6,208 nt of DNA from assembly GCA_946410365.1 (NCBI GenBank), contig CAMKAA010000064.1, positions 1-6,208 on the forward strand. The letters run 5' to 3'. Positions 1,446 through 6,208 of this stretch are shown one piece after another. This stretch comes from an uncultured Lachnospiraceae bacterium. Its GTDB lineage: Bacteria > Bacillota_A > Clostridia > Lachnospirales > Lachnospiraceae. The position numbers were made by a program, and so were the translations under genes. How positions within the stretch are numbered: position 1 is the first letter of the stretch; each line of letters starts with the position of its first letter. The notes under the pieces were generated by a model that saw nothing but the letters and a program-made list of their open reading frames with translations, had not been told where the DNA came from and made no database searches.

Positions 1446-1466
1446 TATTAGTCCTTTTGACTATTA
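1446..1466. promoter_or_regulatory. Upstream copy of a 21-bp NrtR-like operator
   Basis: A 21-bp imperfect palindrome centred on 1456, with perfect core TAGTC (1449-1453), 5 nt, GACTA (1459-1463) and 7 of 8 symmetric positions per half. It contains GT-N7-AC (1451-1452, 1460-1461), the core I recall for NrtR operators. It lies just upstream of the predicted -35 of the operon that encodes an NrtR-like protein. A near-identical copy sits at 1503-1523. Confidence 0.65.
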
Positions 1467-1471
1467 TTCTA

Positions 1472-1500
1472 TTGACGCCGTCATATTTTGGTGTTATTGT
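1472..1500 (+). promoter_or_regulatory. Predicted promoter of the four-gene operon
   Basis: TTGACG (1472-1477) is a good -35. After exactly 17 nt comes TATTGT (1495-1500), preceded by TG at 1492-1493, which makes an extended -10 (TGtTATTGT). Transcription would start near 1507, inside the downstream operator copy. The two 21-bp operators lie on either side, the arrangement expected for repression by polymerase exclusion, possibly with cooperative binding. An 11-bp perfect palindrome (TGACGCCGTCA, 1473-1483) overlaps the -35. Confidence 0.6.
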
Positions 1501-1502
1501 AA

Positions 1503-1523
1503 TTATAGTCAATAAGACTATTA
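1503..1523. promoter_or_regulatory. Downstream copy of the 21-bp NrtR-like operator
   Basis: A 21-bp imperfect palindrome centred on 1513, with core TAGTC (1506-1510), 5 nt, GACTA (1516-1520) and GT-N7-AC at 1508-1509 and 1517-1518. It differs from the upstream copy mainly in the 5-nt centre. Taken together the two copies give the symmetric consensus TAATAGTC-N5-GACTATTA. It covers the predicted transcription start and ends 10 bp before the AGGAGG of the first operon gene. The two centres are 57 bp apart. Confidence 0.65.
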
Positions 1524-3194: not shown

Positions 3195-4346
3195 ATGCAG
3201 AACATCAAGTTGATCATAGGTGCTAATTACGGGGACGAGGGCAAGGGGCTGGCAACAGATTTCTTTGGCGCCAAGGCAGCGGGGAGATTCAATACGATCA
3301 ATGTTCTGACTAATGGAGGCCCCCAGCGAGGACACACCGTGGAACTGTCCGACGGCCGCCGGCATGTGTTCAAACACTTCGGAGCGGCGTCCTTTCGGGG
3401 CGCCGCGAGCTACTTCGCCGAACAGTTCATCGTAAACCCAATGGAATTCATGCGGGAGTATGACGATCTGCGCGCGATCCACGAGGCTCCGGAAGCATAT
3501 ATGAATCACCGCTGCCGCTTCTCCACTCCCTGGGATATGTTGACAAATCAGCTGTTTTTAGAAAAGAACGGTCTCCACAACAGCTGCGGATTCGGGATCT
3601 GGGAGACTGTACTGCGCTATCAGAAAGGATTCGGGATTTCCTTCGGGGCCTTTGCTGCCATGAACAGGGAAGACCGGATCGCATATCTGCGGAGGGTAAG
3701 AGACGGCTATTTCGCGGAACGGGTCCGCGGCCTTAATGCTGCGGATTTCTTTTTCCGGGATGAACTGCTTTGCCGCTTTGAGCAGGACTGCGAATCGATG
3801 CTGCTCCTCTGCCCTCTTCGGGATGACGAGTATCTCAGACACTATCAGACTGTTCTTTTTGAAAATGCCCAGGGACTTCTGCTTGATGGCAACTCCCTCG
3901 AGGGACAGGAATTCACCACTCCATCCACAACGGGCTCCGGAAGGGTCACAGAAGCCGCAGAGCGCATATTCCGGGGCGCAGATATCGAGGTCTGTTATGT
4001 AACCCGCTCCTATCTCACAAGGCACGGCGACGGACCGATGGAAGGTGAATTCACAGCGCGGCAGCTGCAGGCGGTCCTGCCCGGCATAAAGCCTGACGCC
4101 ACAAACGTTGAAAACCGTTTTCAGGGAAATCTTCGATATGGTATGATGGACGTGAATCTTCTGGCAGAAAGGATCCGAAAAGATTTCGACCGTTGTCCCG
4201 ACAGCTCCGGAAACCGATACCGTTCTTCTTTGATGGTCACACATCTTAATGAATATGCGGGCATCGACGCCGAAAGCCTTGCGCAGCGGTTCGGAACTCT
4301 TTATCTGTCGGATGGCAGAACCAGCGGTGACATTCACATTTTTTAA
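3195..4346 (+). CDS. Divergent, shortened adenylosuccinate synthetase (PurA) paralogue
   Basis: A 383-aa PurA-family protein against about 430 aa for housekeeping enzymes. PurA joins IMP and aspartate using GTP. Kept here: phosphate loop GDEGKG (13-18, catalytic Asp14, Lys17), GHT with catalytic His47, the AQG segment with Gln226, TTPSTTGSG (241-249) in place of the VTSSNTTAGG-type loop, YLTRHGDGP (273-281) in place of YTTRVGAGP, and a C-terminal DGRTSGDI (373-380). Changed or not seen: the TTGRGIGP region, where CGFGIWET (131-138) may be the counterpart; the aspartate-loop TTGRxRR, where FQGNLRYG (309-316) sits; and the guanine-recognition TKLD, which reads THLN (349-352). An enzyme with altered nucleotide, base or amino-acid specificity is therefore likely, though loss of activity cannot be excluded. 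AAAGGAGG (3183-3190) precedes the ATG. The operon context, with no purine-pathway neighbours, argues against a housekeeping role. Confidence 0.85.
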   Translation: MQNIKLIIGANYGDEGKGLATDFFGAKAAGRFNTINVLTNGGPQRGHTVELSDGRRHVFKHFGAASFRGAASYFAEQFIVNPMEFMREYDDLRAIHEAPEAYMNHRCRFSTPWDMLTNQLFLEKNGLHNSCGFGIWETVLRYQKGFGISFGAFAAMNREDRIAYLRRVRDGYFAERVRGLNAADFFFRDELLCRFEQDCESMLLLCPLRDDEYLRHYQTVLFENAQGLLLDGNSLEGQEFTTPSTTGSGRVTEAAERIFRGADIEVCYVTRSYLTRHGDGPMEGEFTARQLQAVLPGIKPDATNVENRFQGNLRYGMMDVNLLAERIRKDFDRCPDSSGNRYRSSLMVTHLNEYAGIDAESLAQRFGTLYLSDGRTSGDIHIF

Positions 4347-5247: not shown

Positions 5248-6208
5248 ATGAAGCGAACAGCAATTATAAGAATAGCCGGATTCCTGTTGATCTTCGTGAT
5301 ACTTCTGGAGATCTTCTGTGTTTTATTTGATGGCGGCTATTGGTTTGAAAAAAAGTTCATTTATGACCGCAACGCGCGGATGGCCGCTTTTGAACTGGAG
5401 CAGAAAGGCCAGATCAACGTGCTCAATATCGGAGACAGCCTCAGCACCACTTCGCTGGCGCCCATGGAGCTGTACAGAGACTACGGATATACTTCCTATA
5501 ACCTCGGGCAGGACCTGCAGACTCCGATCGAAAGCTATTATGCCCTTAAGACTGCTCTGAAGACACAGCCGATCAAGGCTGTCCTCTATGAGGGACACAA
5601 TCTCTTCACCAGCACACCGGATTTCGAGTTTCCCTCATCACTCCTCTCAGAAAGCCTTAAGACCGATTTTCCCTTCCTGCGTTTTCATTATGTCTGGCTC
5701 AAATACTGGAAGCCCCGCAGCATAAGACACTACTTCAAGGGTTTTCTGGTAAATGACGGCCATGACGGTTACACAGGAGGCGAATACTACGACTGGAACA
5801 GCACTGAGCGCCACTGGATAAACAAATACTATGTAGCTGTTTTGAAGAAAACCGTAGAGCTGTGCCGCCGCAACGGCATTGCATTCGTTCTCTACAGCGC
5901 GCCTTCCCCTGTGTGTTATCATTCCATTTCTATTCACAACAGCCTTGCCGACCTCGCTGAGGAGATCGGTGTCGATTACCTGGACGCCAATTATGACAGG
6001 GATAAGATCGATATGGACTGGAAGACGGATACCCACGACTGCGGAGACCACCTCAATCTGAGCGGTTCGAGGAAGATGACCAACTATCTCGCGGATTACC
6101 TCGTGAGCAGCACGGATCTTCCGGACCACAGAAACGATCCGGATTTCCGGAACTGGACAGATCTCTGGGATCCTTACGCGGAAGAGATCATTCAGATGGA
6201 GAACATTT
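5248..6208 (+). CDS. Membrane-anchored SGNH-hydrolase-like protein (DltD/AlgX style), 3' end outside the window
   Basis: Open for 320 codons to the window edge without a stop, so the gene is partial. A hydrophobic segment (about residues 9-27) after a Lys/Arg start predicts an N-terminal membrane anchor with the rest outside the membrane. SGNH blocks are visible: INVLNIGDS (56-64, nucleophile Ser64), YNLGQ (Gly87), EGHN (115-118, Gly116/Asn118) and DHLNLSG (267-273, catalytic His268 with Asp264 or Asp267 nearby). Such proteins often accompany MBOAT O-acyltransferases and act on acyl groups of cell-wall polymers or exopolysaccharides; a partner gene may lie beyond the window. The ATG at 5248 has no Shine-Dalgarno sequence, but the next in-frame ATG (residue 44) would remove the anchor, so 5248 is preferred. 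It lies 78 nt after the NrtR-like gene with no clear terminator between. Functional link to the operon is doubtful. Confidence 0.82.
   Translation, partial: MKRTAIIRIAGFLLIFVILLEIFCVLFDGGYWFEKKFIYDRNARMAAFELEQKGQINVLNIGDSLSTTSLAPMELYRDYGYTSYNLGQDLQTPIESYYALKTALKTQPIKAVLYEGHNLFTSTPDFEFPSSLLSESLKTDFPFLRFHYVWLKYWKPRSIRHYFKGFLVNDGHDGYTGGEYYDWNSTERHWINKYYVAVLKKTVELCRRNGIAFVLYSAPSPVCYHSISIHNSLADLAEEIGVDYLDANYDRDKIDMDWKTDTHDCGDHLNLSGSRKMTNYLADYLVSSTDLPDHRNDPDFRNWTDLWDPYAEEIIQMENI

Follow-up and report, generated by a model that had tools for sequence, protein, structure and literature searches.

The 6,208-nucleotide stretch analysed here, hereafter the window, covers positions 1 to 6,208 of contig CAMKAA010000064.1 from an uncultured Lachnospiraceae bacterium, and carries four plus-strand genes arranged head to tail, encoding a small protein (c3), a von Willebrand factor A (vWA)-type protein (c1), a relative of adenylosuccinate synthetase (PurA) and a Nudix/NrtR-type winged-helix regulator. 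As judged from its sequence, the product of the third gene (3195-4346) is a PurA paralogue with altered recognition motifs, and what is chiefly new is the module to which it belongs by gene order, consisting of the enzyme and the vWA protein, joined by c3 in the branch that holds the window. Very probably it is a separate enzyme whose specificity has changed and which belongs to a near-obligate module; the overall reading that we favour, with a probability of roughly 55%, is a ligase of a phage/bacterial module, altered in specificity and subject to ADP-ribose-type derepression. The initial annotation of this DNA had described the paralogue, but overlooked the vWA partner, the barrel partner c3 and the twin operator-like sites. 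The family, predicted fold, conserved core, changed contacts, gene linkage and operator-like sites set out below are read from the sequence.

The linkage was followed across 114 loci, comprising the window, 25 genome loci, eight annotated phage or plasmid loci and the best 80 of 180 viral contigs. In 114/114 the vWA gene adjoins the PurA-like gene upstream on the same strand, with a gap of less than 350 nucleotides in 110, and c3 precedes the vWA gene in 77. The viral scans covered the best 80 of 180 (enzyme), 490 (vWA) and 161 (c3) relatives, those nearest to the query alignments; searched in reverse, all three genes were present in 80/80 of the best viral vWA loci and 80/80 of the best viral c3 loci, many of these contigs overlapping the earlier set. 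Annotated phage records matching the enzyme at an E-value of 1e-5 number 210, of which 189 are Mycobacterium phages and three, from phages of Staphylococcus and Listeria, are possibly PurA relatives of another kind; 207 such records hold the vWA protein. The carriers include large phages and gut bacteria; plasmid copies of the module come from Rhodococcus, Agrobacterium, Methylorubrum, Acetobacter and others, and among 294 genomes of the phylum of genome G024 a relative at 1e-40 was found in one, G024 itself. The PurA-like/vWA pair is unmentioned in the titles and abstract beginnings returned by our literature searches, the full texts lying outside that check.

The PurA-like open reading frame is preceded by a ribosome-binding site (aaaggagg) and aligns end to end with 24 relatives at 38-90% identity; because of these relatives, and of residues invariant in 83 diverse members, it does not represent a chance frame. 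Its product matches Pfam PF00709 over residues 7-323 (E 6.7e-22) and phrog_1211 (E 9.3e-41), and scores far below the NCBIfam PurA equivalog cut-offs (57.1 bits against 402, 47.5 against 395.55, 44.2 against 700, 40.2 against 445 and 38.1 against 368). The AlphaFold model has the PurA fold, with a predicted local distance difference test (pLDDT) score of 95.5 and a match spanning 352 residues. Family alignments took in 83 of 94 enzyme, 75 of 87 vWA and 53 of 55 c3 sequences, with L020, in which the enzyme is split over two frames, omitted. The window enzyme carries GDEGKG, Asp14, His47, AQG, TRHGDGP, FQGNLRYG and THLN, and Asp14, Lys17, His47, Gln226, His277, Asn304 and Gln310 are invariant in 83/83 members. 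The first four correspond to PurA Asp13, Lys16, His41 and Gln224 (E. coli numbers that in part we presume), and their retention means that phosphorylation chemistry on a base oxygen seems to be kept. The initial annotation had likewise considered the core seemingly intact, on the strength of GDEGKG, Asp14, His47, AQG and a TRxGxGP-like element, and its estimate that the protein is about 50 residues shorter than PurA also holds: it has 383 residues against open frames of about 430 for local canonical PurA, family members are about 45-50 residues shorter, and the shortening lies mostly between THLN and a C-terminal SDGRT-like motif. Its statement that the IMP-contacting TTGRGIGP is largely gone has to be corrected, as the conserved family motif SCGxGIWET aligns to this element without a gap.

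The invariant core bears on the strongest alternative, that the PurA-like protein acts not as a small-molecule ligase but as a switch or assembly factor driven by nucleotides, whose NTPase cycle would load the vWA protein and c3 onto a target, or release them from it, in the manner of AAA-vWA or signal recognition particle-like systems. We consider this unlikely, though the least so of the alternatives: Asp14, His47 and Gln226, the residues of phosphoryl transfer to the base and of base holding, are invariant throughout the family, which exceeds the needs of a mere NTPase.

Around this core the substrate contacts differ from those of PurA and of PurZ alike. The equivalent of Asn38 is Gln in 82/83 members, that of Thr129 is Cys in 76/83 and that of Val273, beside the ribose, is His in 83/83, whereas Asn, Thr and Val are kept in 11/11 local PurA and 12/12 PurZ. 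The corresponding valine of S-2L PurZ (V241) is described, in the portion of PMC8342488 available to us, as positioned to interfere with the ribose 2′-OH, and E. coli Arg303 as lying near the 2′-oxygen of IMP and contacting aspartate; the Arg303-equivalent position is variable across the family. The aspartate-binding TTGRxRR loop of PurA was not found in family members, where it is rebuilt with the invariant Asn304 and Gln310, in line with the FQGNLRYG-like reading of the initial annotation. In 12/12 PurZ this loop reads TTVT(K/Q)xxRR, and since PurZ keep it and the PurA-like family does not, a changed amine is likely as well. The rebuilt loop and the altered ribose contacts thus suggest that both the ribose and the amine have changed, and we lean moderately towards an amine other than aspartate.

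At the donor-base position (residue 352), the guanine-specifying TKLD of PurA reads THLN in the window, as had been noted from the sequence earlier. Asn is present in 48/83 members and Asp in 35/83, with no other residue; the aligner opens a gap between Leu351 and Asn352, and the match to Asp333 is the gapless continuation from THL, helped by the Asn/Asp alternation. Relative to PurA, Asp333 has therefore become Asn in the window branch, and all 11 members with a DnaJ/kinase-like partner (below) have Asp. Asn is also found in phiVC8 PurZ (N297), a structure of which, according to the part of the source available, was solved with ATP. For the Asn branch holding the window enzyme, the odds that ATP is the donor appear evenly balanced. 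The earlier suggestion of a different donor, acceptor or amino acid accordingly finds agreement in the changed donor and substrate contacts, and is sharpened, for the donor, to a choice between Asn and Asp.

The tree was built from 42 of the 83 family enzymes, 11 local PurA and 12 PurZ, with no archaeal PurA and no known PurZ0 among its rows. The PurA-like family forms one side of a branch at 100/100 and PurZ likewise, apart from it, so that the phylogeny proposed by the initial annotation separates the family from both PurZ and PurA rows; the PurA rows themselves are not a single group (2 changes). The bootstrap remained unsettled (0.989), the rows of L061 and phiVC8 are long, and the midpoint root serves only for drawing. 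Because Lachnospiraceae rows sit interspersed among phage rows, the tree suggests movement between phages and bacteria, in one direction or the other. As a separate observation, the housekeeping PurA of Lachnospiraceae is, by its sequence, itself unusual: in 8/11 local canonical PurA (L029, L030, L031, L034, L040, L041, L045 and L046) the alignment has Leu at the position of Gln224 and Val at that of Lys331, with TVLD in six of these eight and GSTKSGIAP in six.

PurZ, PurZ0 and DgsS, the enzymes of phage 2-aminoadenine synthesis (S-2L, phiVC8), are likewise phage-borne, short and of PurA fold, and a PurZ-type enzyme that uses aspartate to make a modified purine deoxynucleotide destined for phage DNA would account for the phage carriage of the family and for its Asn at the donor-base position, shared with phiVC8 PurZ; across PurZ that position holds an amide in every row (Gln 9/12, Asn 3/12). 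The PurA-like family, phiVC8 PurZ and S-2L PurZ all fall in PHROG 1211, '2-aminooxy adenylosuccinate synthetase' (loci L375:23081-24112, L165:14229-15308, L060 and L061), and it is for this reason that phage genes of the PurA-like family can bear a PurZ-derived name, a label found on 7/20 phage records among the matches listed. We nevertheless consider this explanation improbable. The Asp13 position is Ser in 12/12 PurZ but Asp in 83/83 family members, PurZ retains the aspartate loop, the two form separate clades, and the window protein scores 24.8 bits against a cut-off of 300 for NF038379 (PurZ). In addition, a Nudix-type regulator accompanies the bacterial copies, and profile searches of the S-2L and phiVC8 records found no vWA or c3 relative. 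The parts of PMC12884076 available contain no discussion of viral homologues of PurA that belong to neither the PurA nor the PurZ group. An ordinary second adenylosuccinate synthetase under separate control, which the shared fold and core might suggest, is slightly more improbable still, given the family-wide changes in aspartate loop and ribose contact, the distance from the PurA equivalog cut-offs and the ordinary purA also carried by 24/25 relatives' genomes, the separate gene for which the initial annotation had advised looking.

The partners of the enzyme are more weakly characterised. The vWA-type protein matches phrog_2971 (E 2.6e-49), a family of phage proteins without a function label, and in profile comparison resembles local VWA_2 domains over the part holding the metal ion-dependent adhesion site (MIDAS; probability 91, E 1e-6). 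The MIDAS pattern DxTxS is present, with Asp75, Gly78 and Ser79 invariant in the 75 aligned members. Pfam VWA models do not match the window protein; within the 75, VWA_4 matches two (best 0.023), CobT_C two (0.025) and DUF444 one (0.079), and PI-PLC-X matches in 15 (best 2.4e-5) were set aside as unlikely. Relatives make up 7992 of 8000 scored candidates, and the 120 among the matches listed bear no Pfam domain or name. The AlphaFold2 model of c3 has pLDDT 86-96 over residues 11-100 and a mean of 72.8 overall; structure searches returned a weak resemblance to eIF5A, EF-P, HEX1 and PWWP, with no PDB match under 1e-3, and no Pfam, NCBIfam, PHROG or PADLOC match was obtained at E 0.01. Its tail contains 17% Met (median of 77 members). 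Six viral-library sequences match c3 below 1e-3, the named ones being two Gp39 proteins, from Bacillus phage G and from an uncultured marine phage, and an uncharacterised protein of virus sp. ctPYc18. PADLOC gave no match for the window enzyme, vWA protein or c3. Amongst loci lacking c3, five encode a divergent Met-tailed protein and 13 show DnaJ-like or kinase-like stretches by home-made profiles, assignments that are weak (DnaJ E 1.7e-4 in L058; Pkinase E 0.016) and under cut-offs. In L056, L058, L063, L122, L131-133, L135, L137, L138 and L143 the position ahead of the vWA gene is occupied not by c3 but by a protein of 336-385 residues; those of L063 and L138 have a weak Pkinase match, and PADLOC kinase-type models also match both.

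The window regulator fuses a Nudix domain (NUDIX, E 5.5e-18) to an NrtR winged helix (NrtR_WHD, E 1.7e-10); it scores 141.8 bits against the cut-off of 400 for NF050029 (NrtR) and matches PADLOC model PDC-S07 at 1.5e-6. An NrtR-type gene is present in 24/26 bacterial loci, and of the two exceptions L022 stops at a contig end; L019 and L021 have their Nudix gene directly before c3, not after the enzyme. Perfect palindromes of the form WTAGTC-N5-GACTAW occur twice in the window, 57 bp apart, against none in 200 shuffles. The promoter-like element between them agrees with the consensus at 9/12 positions and is weak alone (eight such sites in the region against 3.4 in shuffles); a TTGAC element stands at the equivalent spot between the operator-like pair in relatives. 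Twin palindromes 57 or 58 bp apart were found in 17/23 bacterial loci with enough upstream DNA, and one locus has a single site; in L012 one site reads AAAGTC-N5-GACTAA, hence a single match with the strict pattern. Across 61 genomes of the genus the pair occurs in 18, each with one at the operon, and in none with the reversed control; 16 of these come from loci analysed already, and G715 and G721 were checked in addition. In G006 a c3 gene at the end of a contig has the pair in front of it, and for this reason the operon is probably split between contigs. Among 397 sampled genomes of the family of G014 the pair was found in G014 only, and the reversed control in none. Single sites were rejected as evidence, the reversed pattern being commoner than the true one in 16/19 genomes, equal in one and rarer in two (G013, G014); the evidence used is the twin spacing, whilst for the two single sites in actinobacteria the argument is one of position and arm length. 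The Rhodococcus and Tsukamurella plasmids each have one perfect TAGTC-N5-GACTA site directly before the operon, with 11-nucleotide arms in Tsukamurella, and in both a NUDIX gene follows the enzyme. Site and regulator have stayed together across phyla, which provides good evidence for control of the module by the Nudix protein, and local repression of the operon by this protein is, on such sequence patterns, quite probable. Two other upstream regions were noted: in L017, AGTAGCT/AGCTACT before c3 is perhaps a shifted operator, and in Allorhizobium (L056:5976-6042) the inverted repeats GACTTAGACG/CGCCTAAGTC and TTAGAC/GTCTAA, between a divergent NrtR_WHD gene and the module, are perhaps a related operator.

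The NrtR proteins, Nudix-related repressors of NAD metabolism, share with this regulator the domain pair and palindromic operator-like sites at their own operon. The genes linked to the window regulator, in contrast, are not NAD synthesis genes, and the sites differ, being TAGTC-N5-GACTA here but GTTTTCGA-N7-TCGAAAAC in mycobacteria and ATA-N-TTTA-N3-TAAAA-N2-ATA in streptococci (PMC6800001, in part). According to the available parts of PMC6800001 and PMC12735969, characterised NrtR proteins release DNA on ADP-ribose. G014 contains two further twin pairs, one before a short familyless open reading frame and the other before genes for a leucine-rich repeat lipoprotein and a microbial ADP-ribose glycohydrolase of PARG type (PF10021, E 9e-32; L350:2840-4465); nearby frames in L350 and L351 resemble TIR-type proteins by eye. 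The proposal of the initial annotation that the NrtR-like sensor could have the enzyme product as its ligand is so far unsupported; on family grounds and this PARG, ADP-ribose appears the likelier inducer, and we place an inducer of the ADP-ribose type slightly above even odds. Nudix-regulated ADP-ribosylglycohydrolase neighbourhoods (PMC9503650, in part) likewise combine a Nudix transcription factor with ADP-ribose enzymes and a vWA domain, there called a Mg2+-dependent peptide-binding chaperone; the main text of that paper contains no occurrence of PurA or adenylosuccinate.

In the favoured reading, the PurA-like protein would act as catalytic subunit, with the vWA protein and, in the window's branch, c3 as its partners in the module. 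A nucleoside triphosphate, which is probably ATP (or dATP) for the enzymes with Asn, the window's included, and GTP for those with Asp, would phosphorylate an oxygen of a purine-nucleotide-like acceptor, and an amine would then replace that oxygen, as in the PurA reaction; IMP in its usual mode would not serve as acceptor, nor would L-aspartate in its usual pocket serve as amine. The module, common in phage contigs, with genome or plasmid copies in Lachnospiraceae and other bacteria, would in bacteria be repressed by the Nudix/NrtR-type protein through two operators around the promoter, and the repressor would let go upon a build-up of ADP-ribose or a relative, as after NAD+ breakdown. The substrates, the repression, the ligand and any stress or anti-phage role are here what we infer. 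More speculatively, and with distinctly lower confidence, the enzyme may make a new nucleotide, with a new donor, a new amine and an acceptor that is probably deoxy or 2′-modified, and a dedicated vWA protein, along with the Met-tailed barrel or DnaJ-kinase partner, may use or sense this nucleotide; bacteria would have taken this widespread system from phages, placed it under an ADP-ribose-responsive repressor and would fire it on NAD+ breakdown, for example under phage attack.

Several observations weigh against the favoured reading. For the enzyme, Arg314 of the rebuilt loop is kept in 81/83 members, so that one loop arginine is retained, and mean column identity is 45% for the vWA protein and 46% for c3 against 32% for the enzyme, for which reason the enzyme may be an accessory part. 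Going by the title of a 1994 study by Kang, E. coli PurA engineered to D333N reportedly uses XTP, not ATP. PMC12884076, in the parts available, is inconsistent on the PurZ donor. Taken together, these two points make ATP a preference, not a certainty. For the regulation, no TAGTC-type site was found within 350 nucleotides in 5/23 bacterial loci (L017, L019, L021, L022 and L025), the PARG link comes from one genome, and NrtR-family factors can serve other pathways, one of them regulating L-arabinose use (PMC4666351, in part). NAMPT, NMNAT-Nudix and NADAR genes had early been sighted beside several phage copies of the module. NAMPT (6/80) and NMNAT (5/80) occur in phage module loci against 0/80 each in dUTPase control loci, a weak signal; NADAR is present in 2/80 against 3/80, and a PurA-like gene in only 1/80 NAMPT loci, on a contig known already. 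The dUTPase control is imperfect, 5/80 of its loci holding the module, and the NrdD control comprises five loci only. Weakened by the dUTPase control and the 1/80 NAMPT loci, the NAD-salvage link in phages was dropped as evidence.

The features of the window are collected in Table 1. The familyless frame after the regulator gene has relatives in five loci (L001-L005). A recurrent protein cluster lies near the module in 11 viral loci (L070, L074, L078, L080, L083, L085, L088, L090, L118, L138 and L141), and its one examined member (L088) is of SPFH/band 7 type (E 2e-12).

Table 1. Features of the 6,208-nucleotide window
Feature	Position	Strand	Remarks
Lactaldehyde-reductase-type alcohol dehydrogenase	132-1334	minus	before the four-gene operon
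Upstream operator-like palindrome TTAGTC-N5-GACTAT	1448..1464	no strand	pattern scan; conserved pair in relatives
Sigma-70-like promoter TTGACG-N17-TATTGT	1472..1500	+	between the two operator-like palindromes
Downstream operator-like palindrome ATAGTC-N5-GACTAT	1505..1521	no strand	directly after the -10 element
c3, 210 aa	1548..2180	+	SH3-like beta barrel (~residues 10-120) and Met-rich, acidic, low-confidence tail
c1, vWA-type protein, 309 aa	2244..3173	+	MIDAS-like DVTGS motif; PHROG 2971
PurA-like protein, 383 aa	3195..4346	+	PF00709, phrog_1211
Nudix + winged-helix (NrtR-type) regulator, 268 aa	4363..5169	+	Nudix box GX5EX7RRUXEEXGU
320-aa open reading frame without family	5248-6207		after the regulator gene; runs off the window

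The phage records that match the enzyme, at least 200 in number, are partly labelled '2-aminooxy adenylosuccinate synthetase', and the evidence assembled here indicates that the enzyme is something else. If the ADP-ribose link is true, NAD+ breakdown, one of the central themes in phage defence, would be joined to a purine-ligase system not encountered in our literature searches. The donor-base residue, altered by hand in E. coli PurA, has been altered by nature within the PurA-like family, which makes donor specificity directly testable, and the linked three-gene unit offers a handle on a large, unnamed family of vWA-related proteins.
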